From the NCBI RefSeq assembly GCF_002161065.1, contig NZ_NFLV01000011.1, positions 1 through 64,000 on the forward strand: a stretch of 64,000 nt of DNA. Reading direction: 5' to 3'. A model generated the notes under the pieces. It did no database searches, had not been told where the DNA came from, and worked only from the letters and a program-made list of their open reading frames with translations. The stretch comes from Eubacterium sp. An11. GTDB taxonomy: Bacteria; Bacillota; Clostridia; Lachnospirales; Lachnospiraceae. The first letter of the stretch is position 1; each line of letters opens with the position of its first letter. Below are positions 20,005 to 64,000 of the stretch, one piece after another. The translations under genes and the position numbers were made by a program.

Positions 20005-20736
20005 ATGAGCCGGGGACTGAACCGGGATGAGATCAAGCTCATTGCTATGGGGACTATGCTGCTCAACCATGTGGCAACGGTGTTTATGGAGCCGGGAACC
20101 TTTTTCTATGAGCTGTTTCTGGATATCGGGTATTTTACGGCCATCACCATGTGCTATTTTCTGGTGGAAGGCTGGCATTATACGCATTCCAGAAAGCAAT
20201 ATGCGCTCCGTCTGTTTGTGTTCGCGCTGCTTTCCCAGATTCCATTCAGTCTTGCCTTTGCGGAAGGCGGAAAGCTGCAGAATTCTAACCTGAACATGAT
20301 GTTCACGTTGTTTTTCTGTTTTCTGATCATCTGCGCTTTGAAGCAGATTCCTAACCCGATGCTTGGAAAATGCATCGCCCTCTTTCTGACCTTCGGCACT
20401 ATTTTCTGTGACTGGGCAGTGTTTGCCGCGGTGTTTACATGGCTCTTTGTCTGGGCGGAAGGCTCAGAAGAGAAAAAACGTTCCGCCTATCTCTGGGCGG
20501 TGGGAATCTTCGGTGTCTTCACTCTGCTCTCGGGCATTGGCCGTTTCACACCGGTCGGACTTCTTTTTTATGCGCTGGGAGCGACAGCGGGAGTGGCTCT
20601 TTCGGCTTACTGCATTCTGTATTGGTATAATGGAAAACGGATGAAAAAAGGGAAAAAGTTCCTGCAGTGGTTTTTCTATCTGTTTTATCCGGTACATTTG
20701 TTAATTCTGGGACTGCTGCGTTTTGCTTTACAGTAA
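20005..20736 (+). CDS. TraX-family membrane protein (acyltransferase-3-like)
   Basis: 243 residues, seven or eight membrane helices. The opening LNRDEIKLIAMGTMLLNHVA with a conserved His and the following GYFTAITMCYFLVEGWHYT are characteristic of TraX. F-plasmid TraX acetylates pilin; chromosomal homologues in Firmicutes have no assigned substrate. There is no conjugation gene nearby, so this is probably a housekeeping surface acylation protein. Confidence 0.87.
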   Translation: MSRGLNRDEIKLIAMGTMLLNHVATVFMEPGTFFYELFLDIGYFTAITMCYFLVEGWHYTHSRKQYALRLFVFALLSQIPFSLAFAEGGKLQNSNLNMMFTLFFCFLIICALKQIPNPMLGKCIALFLTFGTIFCDWAVFAAVFTWLFVWAEGSEEKKRSAYLWAVGIFGVFTLLSGIGRFTPVGLLFYALGATAGVALSAYCILYWYNGKRMKKGKKFLQWFFYLFYPVHLLILGLLRFALQ

Positions 20737-20796
20737 CGCGCACGAAGAAGCCTGGCGACAAAAAATATGGAGAAAAATACGACGAGGAGGAAGACA

Positions 20797-22005
20797 ATGA
20801 AAAAACGTGTTACAGCTGTACTGCTGGCTCTTCTCATGGTCTGCGGCATGCTGGCTCCGGTGAAAACGGAAGCCGCAGCCTCAGCAGATGATTACAGGGC
20901 GGTATGGTTTTCTTATTATGATTATGAAAGTTATTTAAAATCTGCGGGCAGCAACAATGCCTCCGCTTTCACAAGCTTTTTCCGTAAAGTGGTGAGCAAA
21001 TGCAAGACCCGGGGAATGAACAGAATCATCGTTCAGGTACGCCCGACCGGCGATGCCATCTATGATTCCGATATTTTCCCGACTTCCGCATACATTTCCG
21101 GCAAACAGGGCAGGGATGTTTCTTACGATCCGCTTTCCATCATGGTGGAAGAAGCCCACAGACAGGGACTTGCCATTGAAGCATGGGTCAATCCGTACCG
21201 GGTATCTTTTAACACAAGCTACTCCCAGCTTTCCAAAGACAATCCGGCAAGAAAGTGGCATGAATCCGGCAACGCTTCCGAACGGAGAAATGTATTGTCC
21301 TACAACGGACAACTGTATTACAATCCGTCCAAACCGGAGGTCCGTCAGCTGATCATCGATGGCGTGGAAGAAATTGTGCGTAACTACGATGTGGATGGCA
21401 TACATATGGATGATTACTTTTATCCGAGCTTTTCATCCAGCAATTACAATAAAACCTTTGATGCCCAGGAATACAATGCCTCCGCTGAGAAGAAGAACGG
21501 TATGTCCATCAAAAAATACAGACGTAAACAGGTCAACAAACTGGTGAAAGGCATCAAGAGCGCCATTGACGCCATTGATTCAGATGTGGTATTCGGTGTC
21601 AGTCCTGCCGGCAACATCGACAGCCTGAACAGCAAATATTCCTATTACGTCAACATTAAAAAATGGACAAATTCTACAAAATTTGTCGATTACATCGCTC
21701 CGCAGATCTACTGGGGCTTCTCTCACAAGACTGCGAAGTTTGATAAAATGGTCGACCGCTGGTCTTCTATGGTGGACCAGAGCAAAGTGAAGCTCTACAT
21801 CGGAATTCCGGCCTACAAAATGGCTCAGCCGTCCAACGGCACCACAAAAGCCGAGAAAAAAGAGTTGAAAGGCAAAACCCTTCTGCGGAAAATGGCCAAA
21901 TACGTCAACAAAAAGAACGCAAACGGCATTATTGTCTTCGACTATGCTGACCTGGACAAGGCAGCCTGCAAGAAATTGGCTAAATATTTAAAGAAAACAT
22001 ATTAA
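20797..22005 (+). CDS. Secreted GHL10/DUF187 family putative glycoside hydrolase
   Basis: 402 residues. Signal peptide (about 1-28, ending in EAAAS-A). The rest is a TIM-barrel-like domain with YRAVWFSY, VRPTGDAIY, AWVNPYRV, VDGIHMDDYFYP and FGVSPAG, the markers of the glycosyl-hydrolase-like 10 (YngK-type) family. These act on wall or exopolysaccharide glycans; the substrate is unproven. ATG 20797 follows GAGGAGG (20784-20790); a 10-codon in-frame extension would disrupt the signal peptide. A strong terminator follows. Confidence 0.9.
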   Translation: MKKRVTAVLLALLMVCGMLAPVKTEAAASADDYRAVWFSYYDYESYLKSAGSNNASAFTSFFRKVVSKCKTRGMNRIIVQVRPTGDAIYDSDIFPTSAYISGKQGRDVSYDPLSIMVEEAHRQGLAIEAWVNPYRVSFNTSYSQLSKDNPARKWHESGNASERRNVLSYNGQLYYNPSKPEVRQLIIDGVEEIVRNYDVDGIHMDDYFYPSFSSSNYNKTFDAQEYNASAEKKNGMSIKKYRRKQVNKLVKGIKSAIDAIDSDVVFGVSPAGNIDSLNSKYSYYVNIKKWTNSTKFVDYIAPQIYWGFSHKTAKFDKMVDRWSSMVDQSKVKLYIGIPAYKMAQPSNGTTKAEKKELKGKTLLRKMAKYVNKKNANGIIVFDYADLDKAACKKLAKYLKKTY

Positions 22006-33886: not shown

Positions 33887-34396
33887 ATGAAAAAAGGCAA
33901 AAGAACGGCATTTTATGGGATGTTTCTGGCTCTGGCTCTGGTAGCGGGTTATGTGGAACAGCTGCTGCCCATTAACCTGGGAGTGCCGGGGGTTAAGCTG
34001 GGACTCGCCAATATTGTGACCATGGTGCTTCTTTATACCGTGGGAATCCGTGCAGCGGCAGGCATCACTGCCATTCGGATTCTGCTGGCAGGAATTTTGT
34101 TCGGCACAGGATTTTCCATTGTATACAGTGCGGCAGGAGCGGTACTGAGCATTCTGGTCATGACGGCTTTAAAAAGTACAAAACAGTTTTCCTGCATCAG
34201 CGTCAGCGTGGCAGGCGGCGTTTTTCACAACGTGGGACAGATTCTGGTGGCGATTCTGATTCTGGAGACCGGCGCGCTGGTCTATTACCTTCCGGTTCTG
34301 ATTTTGTCCGGTCTGATCGCCGGGATTGTCATTGGAATCCTGAGCGGCCTGCTCATGAGGCGGCTGGCACCGGTGATCCGGGCGTCGGATTTGTAA
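33887..34396 (+). CDS. Gx transporter family membrane protein
   Basis: 169 residues, about five helices, with the GVPGVKLGLANIVTMVLLY and FGTGFSIVYSAAGAVLS segments of the Gx family (once called heptaprenyl diphosphate synthase component I, PF07456), related to ECF substrate-binding subunits. In Clostridia these genes sit beside NusG-II and ApbE genes; here apbE follows after an unusual 644-bp spacer. The TAA stop at 34394-34396 is also the first bases of a palindromic repeat. Confidence 0.87.
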   Translation: MKKGKRTAFYGMFLALALVAGYVEQLLPINLGVPGVKLGLANIVTMVLLYTVGIRAAAGITAIRILLAGILFGTGFSIVYSAAGAVLSILVMTALKSTKQFSCISVSVAGGVFHNVGQILVAILILETGALVYYLPVLILSGLIAGIVIGILSGLLMRRLAPVIRASDL

Positions 34397-34591
34397 AGGT
34401 GGCAACAGTTTTTCGATTAAACAGACAATGACGCAAGGGCACATACGGATTCGCCCGGCTCGGCCCTCAGTCGGACTGACCAGGGGTATTCATTGTAAAA
34501 TGATTATATCAGTCCTCCCTCACAGCTCGCGGTCGAAAGCCGTATGTGTCCAAAACGTCATCTGCCTGTTGAAAAGCCTATGTGCCACCTT
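34396..34591. repeat. Palindromic element, copy A (about 196 bp)
   Basis: The ends AAGGTGGCA (34396-34404) and TGCCACCTT (34583-34591) are perfect 9-bp inverted repeats. Further pairs nest toward the centre: CAACAG/CTGTTG (34403-34408, 34566-34571), ATGACG/CGTCAT (34428-34433, 34556-34561), CACATACGG/CCGTATGTG (34440-34448, 34540-34548), TTCG/CGAA and GGACTGA/TCAGTCC, around a TCATT-GTAA-AATGA apex. A second copy of the left arm lies at 63886-64000. It could be a MITE-like insertion or the template of a large folded RNA. Confidence 0.8.
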
Positions 34592-34593
34592 AA

Positions 34594-34809
34594 AAAAATC
34601 CTGTGCTACGCTGACAAAACAGCAGGTTATGGCTACAGATGAATCAGTGGATACCAAAATTTACGGTCGCGTCTGTCGGGCATGAACCAGCAGAGCAAGC
34701 TGCACAGGCAGCGCTTCTGTCGGTTTGAATCAGGTATTTTTATTATCATCGATAGACCACAGTCAAAAACTGCCACAATCTGTTGTTTCGCCAGGGTAGC
34801 CAGGATTCT
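34594..34809. repeat. Second palindrome of the Gx-apbE spacer (about 215 bp)
   Basis: Roughly 40-nt outer arms (34594-34633 and 34772-34809) are imperfect inverted copies: read on opposite strands both begin AA-ATCCTG, contain GCTAC-CTG, AAACA-CAG and TT-TGGC. The differences are mostly single transitions. Both arms can be read as similar peptides (ILATL-KQQ), suggesting two inverted copies of one ancestral sequence. No gene with a ribosome binding site is seen. Confidence 0.6.
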
Positions 34810-35011
34810 TTGTAAATCTCTATACACGCAGACTGCATTGGGAGAAGACGAGGTATTGATATGGTTTGACGACGACTGTGAGCGCAGGCGTCTGATTTAT
34901 ATTGACGAAATGCAGCCAAGTACCAGTCTGCCGAAGTGGAGGAGGAGAACTTTTATCAATGCCTTGTCTTCGGTAAAGCAGCCTTCTGTGGGCTGCAAAG
35001 AGATTTACAAA
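34809..35011. repeat. Third palindrome of the Gx-apbE spacer (about 203 bp)
   Basis: Perfect 13-bp ends, TTTGTAAATCTCT (34809-34821) and AGAGATTTACAAA (34999-35011), plus an inner 18-bp stem (34844-34861 with 34954-34971) with two G:U pairs. The loop holds smaller pairs such as GACG/CGTC. The element ends 29 bp before the apbE start. Confidence 0.75.
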
Positions 35012-35040
35012 TCCCAATTTATAAAGAAAGGAATTGTTTT

Positions 35041-36207
35041 ATGAGAATCATACAACATGGCGAACCAAACATTTTCCATAAGAGTCGCCGCGTGCGGCGC
35101 GCCGTGCTGCGGGGAAGAGGAATCCGGATAACAGCGCTGGCGCTGGCGGCAGTTTTAGTTCTGTCCTTATCCGGCTGCGCGATGAGAGGCGGCAGTGACG
35201 GGAATTCGCCGGATGGACAGGAAAAGACGGAAGCAGAGACATTTACTGCCACAAATTTTGTGATGGACACAGTGCTGCAGGAGACGATTTATGGCAGCGA
35301 GGATGTCACAAAGGAGATTGCTGACCGGTTGTCGGAGATTGAAATCGGACAGCTTTCCTGGAGAGAGGAAAACAGTGAGGTAGCTCAGATCAATACTCGA
35401 TGCGGGGAGGGAGAGAGTGTTGTCATGAGCGATGATTTTTATCACTGGACAGAAGTCTCTCTGGATTTGGCGAAAAAAAGCGGAGGGGCCTTTGATCCCA
35501 CCATCGGTAATCTGACCCGGCTTTGGAACATAGAGGGAGAGAATCCATCGGTGCCGGCGCAGGCGGATATCGATGAGGCGTTAAAACATGTTGGATATGG
35601 ATATATTAATATAGAAGAAACAGATAAGACTATTTCCATGGCGCAGGGATGTACGCTGGATCTTGGGGCCGTGGGAAAGGGGATTGCCTGTGATGTGACG
35701 AGAGATTATCTGGAGGGACAGGATGGGGTTTCCGGAGCGGTCGTTGCCGTGGGAGGCAGCATCCTCGCCTATGGCAGTAAACCGGATGGAAGCGACTGGA
35801 AGGTGGCCATTCAGGATCCGGAGAAAGAGGAAGGCGAGTACATGGGAGTTCTGAGTCTCCCGGGAACAGTCTGCGTTTCCACCTCCGGCGATTATGAGAA
35901 GTATTTTATCCAGGACGGAAAGCGGTATCATCACATTCTTGATCCGGCTACGGGATATCCGTCAGAGAGCGGTCTTTCCTCTGTCACGGTGATCTGCCCG
36001 GATGAGGGAGAGTGGAAAGACGATGCCGGTCTGCTGTCCGACGGCCTGTGTACCGCCTGTTTTGTGCTGGGCAGGGAAAAAGGCATGAAGCTTCTGGAGC
36101 AGTACGGCATGGAAGGCGTTTTTATTGACAAGGATAAAAATGTGAGCGTAACTGACGGCATCGCCGACAGCTTTGAGATTCTCAACGAAGAGTATCAGAT
36201 ACAGTGA
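35041..36207 (+). CDS. apbE: FAD:protein FMN transferase (ApbE lipoprotein)
   Basis: 388 residues. A basic N-terminus of about 30 residues precedes a lipoprotein signal with lipobox LSGC (Cys46). The ApbE domain shows TNFVMDT, GGAFDPTIGNLTRLW, LDLGAVGKGIACD, VAVGGSILAYG, STSGDYEKYF and HHILDPATGYP. It transfers FMN from FAD to Ser/Thr of partner flavoproteins outside the membrane, typically redox-complex subunits. ATG 35041 follows AAGAAAGGA; the open frame from 34936 runs through the third palindrome and is not used. It probably forms a unit with the Gx gene. Confidence 0.93.
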   Translation: MRIIQHGEPNIFHKSRRVRRAVLRGRGIRITALALAAVLVLSLSGCAMRGGSDGNSPDGQEKTEAETFTATNFVMDTVLQETIYGSEDVTKEIADRLSEIEIGQLSWREENSEVAQINTRCGEGESVVMSDDFYHWTEVSLDLAKKSGGAFDPTIGNLTRLWNIEGENPSVPAQADIDEALKHVGYGYINIEETDKTISMAQGCTLDLGAVGKGIACDVTRDYLEGQDGVSGAVVAVGGSILAYGSKPDGSDWKVAIQDPEKEEGEYMGVLSLPGTVCVSTSGDYEKYFIQDGKRYHHILDPATGYPSESGLSSVTVICPDEGEWKDDAGLLSDGLCTACFVLGREKGMKLLEQYGMEGVFIDKDKNVSVTDGIADSFEILNEEYQIQ

Positions 36208-36483: not shown

Positions 36484-36690
36484 TTGTGTGACATGATAGC
36501 GATGAAGCGTGAGGTTGCTGCGCATGGCGCAGGTTTTCCGTGGAGCGAATGTCAAGTCAAGATACTGGCGACAAGTCACTGTACAATAGATACAATCTAC
36601 AGATGCGTAGAGACGCAGTGTGGTATCAAGTATGATACACACGGAGGAGTGTACAGTCACCGCTTGTCGTACTGAATGAAAAGTGCGAAA
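36484..36690 (+). ncRNA. Structured 5' leader of the S10 operon
   Basis: A CTGCGC-ATG-GCGCAG hairpin (36518-36532) is followed by a multibranched domain closed by CGACAAG/CTTGTCG (36569-36575, 36663-36669) and ACTGTAC/GTACAGT (36578-36584, 36651-36657). Inside are TGCGT-AGAG-ACGCA (36604-36617) and a 10-bp GTGTGGTATCA/TGATACACAC stem (36618-36642). Long leaders of this operon are bound by a ribosomal protein product (L4 in E. coli) for autogenous control; which protein binds here is not known. Confidence 0.7.
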
Positions 36691-63089: not shown

Positions 63090-63886
63090 CATTAGGACAA
63101 TATTATAAGGCGGATTCTCCCCTTCACCGGCTGGATCCGCGGGTCAAACTGGCGGGAACGCTTCTGTTTGTGATCACTCTGTTTTTCCCGAAATCTGTGT
63201 TGGGCCTTGTGACGGCGACCCTGTTTCTGGGGATTATCATTGCCTTGTCCCGGGTGCCGTTTTCCATGGTGATCCGCGGCGTAAAACCGCTCTTTATCAT
63301 CATTTGCTTTTCGGCTATTGTCAACCTTCTCTGCACACCGGGAACAGTACTTCTTGAGGCGGGACCTGTACGAATCACCCGGGAAGGTATCTGGATATCG
63401 TTTTATCTGGTGGTGCGTCTGGTGTATCTGGTCATGGGATCATCCATCATGACATTTACCACGACACCGAATCAGCTTACAGACGGACTGGAGAAATCTC
63501 TGGGATTCCTGCAGCACCTTCGGATACCGATTCATGAACTTTCTATGATGATTTCCATTGCCCTTCGTTTTATTCCGATCCTCACGGAGGAGCTGGATAA
63601 GATCATGAAAGCGCAGATGTCCAGAGGAGCGGATCTGGAATCCGGAAATATTCTTCAGAGAGCCAGAAAAATGCTGCCGGTATTGGTGCCGCTGTTTATT
63701 TCCGCCATCCGTCGTGCTTCTGACCTGGCCCTGGCCATGGACGCCCGGTGCTATAACGGCGGAGAGGGAAGAACGAAACTGAAACCACTTATATATAGAA
63801 GAAATGATTTTATCGCTTACGGGATTCTGTTCTTGTATGTGGCGGTGATGGTATTGTGGGGGTTTTGCTTCAGGTGGGATTTATAA
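63074..63886 (+). CDS. ecfT: ECF transporter transmembrane subunit EcfT
   Basis: 270 residues, about five helices and the coupling helices with ARG-type motifs (AQMSRGADLE and ALAMDARCYNGG). Joins the two ATPases to exchangeable S components. Coupled to ecfA2 by overlap. Its TAA stop is the start of repeat copy B. Confidence 0.94.
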   Translation: MLREMTLGQYYKADSPLHRLDPRVKLAGTLLFVITLFFPKSVLGLVTATLFLGIIIALSRVPFSMVIRGVKPLFIIICFSAIVNLLCTPGTVLLEAGPVRITREGIWISFYLVVRLVYLVMGSSIMTFTTTPNQLTDGLEKSLGFLQHLRIPIHELSMMISIALRFIPILTEELDKIMKAQMSRGADLESGNILQRARKMLPVLVPLFISAIRRASDLALAMDARCYNGGEGRTKLKPLIYRRNDFIAYGILFLYVAVMVLWGFCFRWDL

Positions 63887-64000
63887 AGGTGGTAACAGTT
63901 ACCCAATCAAACAGACAATGACGTATGGCACATACGGATTCGCCCGACTCGACCCTCAGTCGGACTGACCGGGGGCAGGGGTATCATTGTAAAATGACTA
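63886..64000. repeat. Palindromic element, copy B (left part, cut by the window end)
   Basis: About 115 bp closely matching 34396-34505: AAGGTGG-AACAG, AACAGACAATGACG, GGCACATACGGATTCGCCCG, CCCTCAGTCGGACTGACC and ATCATTGTAAAATGA are shared. As in copy A, it begins directly at a transporter stop codon (TAAAGGTGG). The complementary right arm would lie beyond the window. Confidence 0.85.

Follow-up and report, generated by a model that had tools for sequence, protein, structure and literature searches.

What is the palindromic repeat that begins at the stop codons of two membrane-protein genes in this DNA? The window, by which we mean the whole stretch of 64,000 nucleotides analysed here, had been described from its letters alone as holding a palindrome at 34396-34591 and a second, partial copy that opens in the same way. 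This preliminary description left two readings, a MITE-like element with a target preference and a 3' RNA module tied to transporter mRNAs. We compared the window with the rest of its own draft genome (G000, whose contigs include C1, C8, C18, C30, C46, C53 and C94) and with the genomes of relatives (among them G002, G007, G013, G020 and G022).

Extent and structure of the element

The palindrome is real. Positions 34394-34593 form a long imperfect palindrome with a predicted RNA fold of -79.1 kcal/mol (z -6.7; 0/200 shuffles as stable), and 34390-34600 folded as DNA gives z -5.9. Its ends, AAGGTGGCA and TGCCACCTT, are perfect over 9 bp as read from the sequence, and the inverted-repeat listing gives its arms as 15 nt with 87% complementarity. 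The boundaries first drawn did not hold, since the flanks of other copies reveal the ~196-bp palindrome to be one arm of a ~630-bp repeat. With 30 matches turned to the same orientation, similarity mostly starts at GGATTTGTAAAGG on the left and extends for hundreds of bases to the right. Copy A has AGAGATTTACAAATCC as its right terminus and spans 34387 to ~35014 (Table 1), between a PF07456 gene and apbE (PF02424). Outer inverted ends (GGATTTGT and ACAAATCC) flank three predicted hairpins, P, M and Q. Folding 635 nt of copy A gives -240.3 kcal/mol (z -7.0, 20 shuffles), and the predicted shape is an outer stem, formed by both ends, that carries these hairpins.

The second copy does open alike at the stop codon of ecfT, which its TAA at 63884-63886 ends. 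It had been taken for a left half because the window stops at 64000; the contig carries the remainder to 64514. The sequence TAAAGGTGG, from which the palindrome had been said to start, lies inside the element, and therefore the element's own end supplies the TAA that closes both genes.

Table 1. Features of the two copies in the window.
Feature	Position	Strand	Basis or remark
Full-length composite element, copy A (P-M-Q)	34387..35014	+	Bounds of similarity to other copies
Left outer inverted end GGATTTGTAAA	34387..34397	+	Holds TAA 34394-34396, now ending the upstream gene
Right outer inverted end TTTACAAATCC	35004..35014	+	End match to other copies
Arm P (palindrome first described)	34396..34592	.	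Folds and alignment of copies
Conserved core of arm P	34450..34537	-	Core alignment, compensatory changes
Middle arm M, approximate bounds	34593..34806	.	Own hairpin in predicted fold
Arm Q, approximate bounds	34807..35006	.	Predicted fold
Conserved core of arm Q	34866..34947	+	Core alignment, compensatory changes
Copy B, first 125 bases	63876..64000	+	Continues on the contig, between ecfT and truA

No known RNA family was found in the element, either by an Rfam gathering scan of the window, which matched elsewhere only, or by a search of 34380-35035 with E up to 5. The match elsewhere, at 36494-36574, is an ordinary S10-Clostridia ribosomal protein leader (RF03136, 95 bits). No terminator-like match lies inside the element; the sole one in 34300-35100 sits within the upstream gene. 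At 34930-34947, the Q core contains GGAGGAG, which resembles a ribosome binding site.

Arm types and conserved cores

The arms are ~200-290 nt long and come in several types: P, Q and R in G000, where some copies carry R instead of Q, and a further type, T, in relatives. Because P and its partner, Q or R, are read on opposite strands, the cores point outwards. Such outward-pointing arms stand at both ends of 23 loci, and divergent core pairs also occur in G022. The cores lie ~65-150 bp inside the element ends and are strongly conserved. A motif search allowing 3-4 substitutions, which favours conserved cores, retrieved 44 P and 40 Q/R cores; 37 and 36 of these were aligned, with 37 (P) and 36 (Q/R) invariant columns. 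The order of the blocks shared by the P and Q/R cores suggests to us that the two are homologous.

The alignments are consistent with conserved base pairing. Paired cells amount to 98.7% in P and 97.2% in Q/R, falling to 25-58% when the partner is slid by 1-3 columns, although the structures were derived from the same alignments as were tested. Compensatory changes, on both sides of a pair, affect 6/21 pairs in P and 9/25 in Q/R, where many of the cells concerned separate Q from R and may reflect few events. The covariation score is 0.185 for P (0.109 when shuffled) and 0.331 for Q/R (0.175), and 0/500 shuffles scored as high. Further pair types on the P core gave no signal (452/500 shuffles as high).

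Two other structures were noticed. At the tip of some arms, there is a long GC-rich, terminator-like hairpin (L081, L082 and L087 in G022; L111 and L234 in G013) that is absent from most G000 arms. In the right flanks of loci L007 and L009, a second long palindrome lies beside the element, GC-rich inside and with ends like CATAGGAAATTG and CAATTTCCTATG; it is perhaps another repeat family.

Copies in the genome and among relatives

The repeat belongs to a family, as had been proposed. In its own genome, the 200-bp part has 35 matches and a 647-bp query 74. The 46 stretches fetched from G000 hold 70 end instances, of which we kept 66 after dropping four as internal or false. They define 43 loci with recognisable ends, some of which may be halves of one element split between contigs; both ends are present in 23. 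These numbers are lower bounds because draft assemblies break in or beside elements. Such breaks are seen at the G000 contig ends of C1, C8, C18, C46, C53 and C94 and at several contig ends of G022. The family had been expected to fail if there were no further copies, or if copies differed without compensatory changes and lay away from gene ends; we found neither.

The distribution is narrow. Among named genomes, an exact core pattern has 11 matches, six of them in 'Eubacteriaceae bacterium CHKCI004' and three in 'Candidatus Anaerobutyricum avicola'; the two outside the genus were judged by eye to be chance. With up to 3 mismatches, the P pattern matches 34 times in G000, 57 in G022 and 5 in G020, and 25 other genomes of the 245 have 1-2 matches each, the same as the reversed control. 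The T-type pattern matches 19 times in G013 and four times each in G020 and G022, and in no other of the 245 genomes (its reversed control gave one match in each of three genomes). The P model finds 29 copies in G000, 43 in G022, 5 in G020 and a doubtful one in G002 among 24 genomes of the genus. Run on 250 genomes of the family, it hits none but the window's own genome; as it missed the T type, its counts are minimum values. From pattern and model matches together, four of the 24 genus genomes therefore hold the family at this sensitivity, and the models and patterns used found no convincing copy in the other 20. An origin in phages, plasmids or viral contigs was dropped, neither the 647-bp query nor the exact core pattern having a match there.

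Shared junctions with changed contents

Elements often occupy the same junctions in different species. Six of the 11 G020 loci align on both sides with element loci of G000 (L090, L091, L093, L094, L098, which has no recognisable core, and L244). Of the others, L095 shares one side, L097 the neighbourhood only, and L092, L096 and L247 are not shared. In G013, where 16 loci were fetched of 19 matches, five share both sides with G000 (L246, L249, L252, L257 and L262); one of these junctions is that of copy A in the window, and its element in G013 is of the T type. Chance would give 0.14 (G020) and 0.20 (G013) shared junctions, assuming ~3500 junctions. In G022, an element follows ecfT near a contig end and the start of truA faces another, and therefore the ecfT/truA site is probably occupied there too. 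Joins in G022 and G013 may be wrong because these drafts break at repeats.

The contents of these junctions differ. At site 1, the flanks match to ~1 base on both sides, with P-M-Q in G000 vs P' and an R-type arm in G020. Site 2 shows opposite orientations between species, and at site 3 each of three species has its own arm combination; the flanks agree closely at both. The hypD junction holds P-M-Q in G000 and T-type elements in G020 and G013. At C8:81496, behind a gene assigned to PF00148 by Pfam, G020 has a 266-bp remnant, seemingly without a core, G013 a 575-bp element, and G007 no element.

P arms cluster largely by genome. At matching sites, G000 and G020 P arms are 0.738 (L004/L090), 0.736 (L010/L091) and 0.745 (L011/L095, a site shared on one side only) identical. 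The median identity of the same G000 arms to the other 28 is 0.907, 0.890 and 0.885, and for each of the three, 26/28 G000 arms are closer than the arm of the other species. In a tree of 44 P arms, all five from G020 group together (100/99), and 21 of the 29 from G000 make up a second clade (93/94, short of the tool's star). Neither G000 nor G022 is a single clade as a whole; they need 4 and 3 changes. Arms also appear to be mosaic, as seven pairs of G000 elements with P identity >=0.94 carry different right arms (arms hand-assigned).

These patterns bear on whether the elements stayed in place. Each species may instead have received independent insertions at the same hot spots, which would account for different arm types and orientations at the same junctions and for the clustering of P arms by genome. 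Against this, 6/11 G020 loci fall on G000 junctions, with flanks that match to ~1 base at site 1 and also agree closely at the other two sites, and no known strong target motif accounts for such reuse. Outer flanks are often AAATT, except where the end falls in a reading frame, but stops are no more frequent at points beside AAATT (13/86 vs 2101/11094). We give recurrent insertion about one chance in four. The shared junctions support the persistence of elements at their sites, which we regard as probable. The trees and mosaic arms, and not conversion tracts, lead us to infer that arms have been homogenised or replaced within genomes.

Position relative to genes

We asked how often an ORF of >=95 codons reads towards an element and has its stop codon between -6 and +15 bases from the element end. 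Under this rule, 28/66 ends and 26/43 loci face a stop. They fall into two classes. In class 1 (19/66 ends), the stop is at +6 or before, in the flank or just inside the end; eight of these stops are at -3, TAA followed by three bases, mostly ATT. In class 2 (9/66 ends), the stop is at +11 and the element's own TAA ends the ORF. Under the same rule, class 1 is expected at 3.6% of ends from random tolerated points of C8 (P = 1e-12) and at 1.7% from all points outside elements (P = 2e-18). Class 2 shows no clear excess (7.0% at tolerated points, P = 0.04; 18.0% at all points, P = 0.86). The gene-end signal therefore rests on class 1. Under a loose rule, 37% of loci would be expected to pass if all points outside elements are taken (P = 0.002 for 26/43). 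A first control (19% of points against 26/43 loci, P = 2e-9) was superseded; it relied on called genes, and data and control were handled unlike. Both window copies belong to class 2; it is the relatives, with stops within a few codons, that show them to lie at gene ends.

The genes concerned are of many kinds. By Pfam, the 28 stop-facing ORFs include DNA polymerase III alpha, MutL, HypD, PF00148, an M18 peptidase, an acyl-CoA dehydrogenase, an aminotransferase, a carbonic anhydrase, a methyltransferase, a glycerol-3-phosphate acyltransferase and ArsC; five have no Pfam match. Only five are transporter-like, so the proposed link to transporter genes fell away: CbiQ (EcfT) and PF07456, both in the window, BioY, one ABC ATPase and a weak P-type ATPase match, with PF07456 counted solely by its name in the preliminary description (Gx family). 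Stops face P arms at 17/32 ends, Q at 7/22 and R at 4/12, with no significant orientation bias of P towards stops (17/32 vs 11/34, Fisher p = 0.13).

Placement between a stop codon and the start of the next gene, a conserved structure and the occupation of the same junctions across species could all reflect a benefit to the host, the element being a bidirectional terminator, insulator or RNA processing site under selection. We find this improbable, at about one chance in five. The one terminator-like match around copy A lies inside the upstream gene, 20 of the 24 genus genomes have no convincing copy, some orthologous junctions are empty, and the G020 remnant seemingly lacks a core.

Insertion and the search for a mover

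Both window junctions are empty in G020. There, the PF07456 gene stop is followed by the apbE start region and ecfT is likewise directly followed by truA, with no element in either place. In G022, no element lies behind the one PF07456 gene read, of two matching genes. These empty sites support insertion of the element as the probable event. The 23 two-ended elements show no clear excess of target-site duplications over unpaired flanks (offsets 0-7, lengths 2-6, 8 and 9), and none is a longer copy, the longest being <=895 bp. Among the matches in the 104-contig draft, we found no transposase-bearing element with these ends.

Co-occurrence with RAYT found no support. PF01797, the family searched for, is not specific for RAYT; it occurs in 16/24 genus genomes with no link to the element, and G000 has no more of it than one truncated ORF and one fragment. 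No cores lie near the three Y1 loci inspected. One of the Y1-type transposase ORFs, at L219 (C30, near 20714-21001), is truncated to 119 aa and has no hairpin core nearby; the ORF beside the Y1 genes of G020 and G022 we take to be TnpB.

These results largely support the proposal of a MITE-like element with target preference, though not in every part. Its many copies, inverted ends, G020 empty sites and flank stops (19/66 vs 3.6%) stood; it found no support in a target duplication, a longer copy or a linked transposase, and the class closed by the element's own TAA is in no clear excess. A classic MITE, a deletion derivative of an IS that a DDE transposase mobilises by binding the outer inverted ends, would also fit the AAATT-like flanks at many ends. 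Its terminal inverted repeats are present here, but the absence of target duplications above chance, the strong conservation of cores ~65-150 bp inside the ends and the 895-bp ceiling leave us sceptical of it, to the same degree as of a host benefit. The other early proposal, a 3' RNA module of transporter mRNAs, was suggested by both window copies following membrane-protein genes and has next to no chance of being right, given stop-facing genes of all kinds, stops facing all arm types and an orientation that differs at a shared site.

Discussion

We observe outer ends that enclose several arm types, presence or absence between species, an excess of stop codons at the element ends, and the same junctions with different arms. 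The interpretation we lean towards, with somewhat better than even confidence, is a non-autonomous, mosaic composite hairpin element that inserts at gene ends, is retained there and is homogenised within genomes. A trans-acting factor would recognise the folded core and move the element, as is thought for TnpA_REP with REPIN/BIME. Insertions at gene ends would be kept because they are tolerated, and perhaps they are targeted. Once placed, elements would stay at their junction across species divergence, while recombination between copies, by gene conversion or arm exchange, would homogenise the arms within each genome. Movement itself we infer from sequence comparisons. A more specific version seems possible to us, though clearly less probable: cloverleaf-like intergenic elements whose position is vertically inherited and whose arms evolve in concert through exchange, with a structure-specific nuclease recognising the core.

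A search of the open-licence literature returned nothing on this hairpin element family or its behaviour. For intergenic repeats, it is usually presence or absence that is scored. Here, position and sequence appear to evolve apart, with junctions common to species and arms that follow the host genome. If the non-autonomous composite element is the correct interpretation, it would offer a tractable gut-bacterial system for asking how such repeats persist, whether dispersed non-coding DNA undergoes gene conversion and what favours gene ends. In addition, the conserved core is a concrete bait for finding the protein that recognises it.

Several known systems invite comparison, each as the sources cited describe it. 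CIR, ERIC and Correia elements are also small, mobile and intergenic and form long stem-loops, and CIR consists of two arms and a linker (PMC2229807), but they measure ~100-200 bp and are likened here by description, not sequence. The staphylococcal STAR are intergenic repeats that have likewise been compared between species, but they are short direct repeats for which the source reports finding no signs of gene conversion (PMC3532100), unlike the homogenisation proposed here. REPIN/BIME share with our element two inverted imperfect hairpins, found here at 23 loci, a mosaic of hairpin types, irregular stems, an intergenic location and a non-autonomous nature (PMC3116915, PMC8266576). For them, a single-strand transposase has been described (PMC8266576, PMC3116915). 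They differ in that, in these accounts, a REP has 20-50 nt, whereas our arms have ~200-290 nt, and carries a conserved 5' tetranucleotide, most often GTAG; we noticed none by eye. Our element, in turn, has a middle hairpin, stop-codon enrichment and no linked RAYT. We do not file it as a REPIN/BIME because its arms exceed the size of a REP and no cognate transposase was found. The BOX elements of Streptococcus pneumoniae likewise consist of modules, measure 67-637 bp, fold tightly with their ends paired and are nearly restricted to one lineage; unlike our element, they cause target duplications (PMC3049150), and the likeness is again one of description, not sequence. By analogy, then, the design resembles REPIN/BIME but is far larger, and in size and modularity it resembles BOX.
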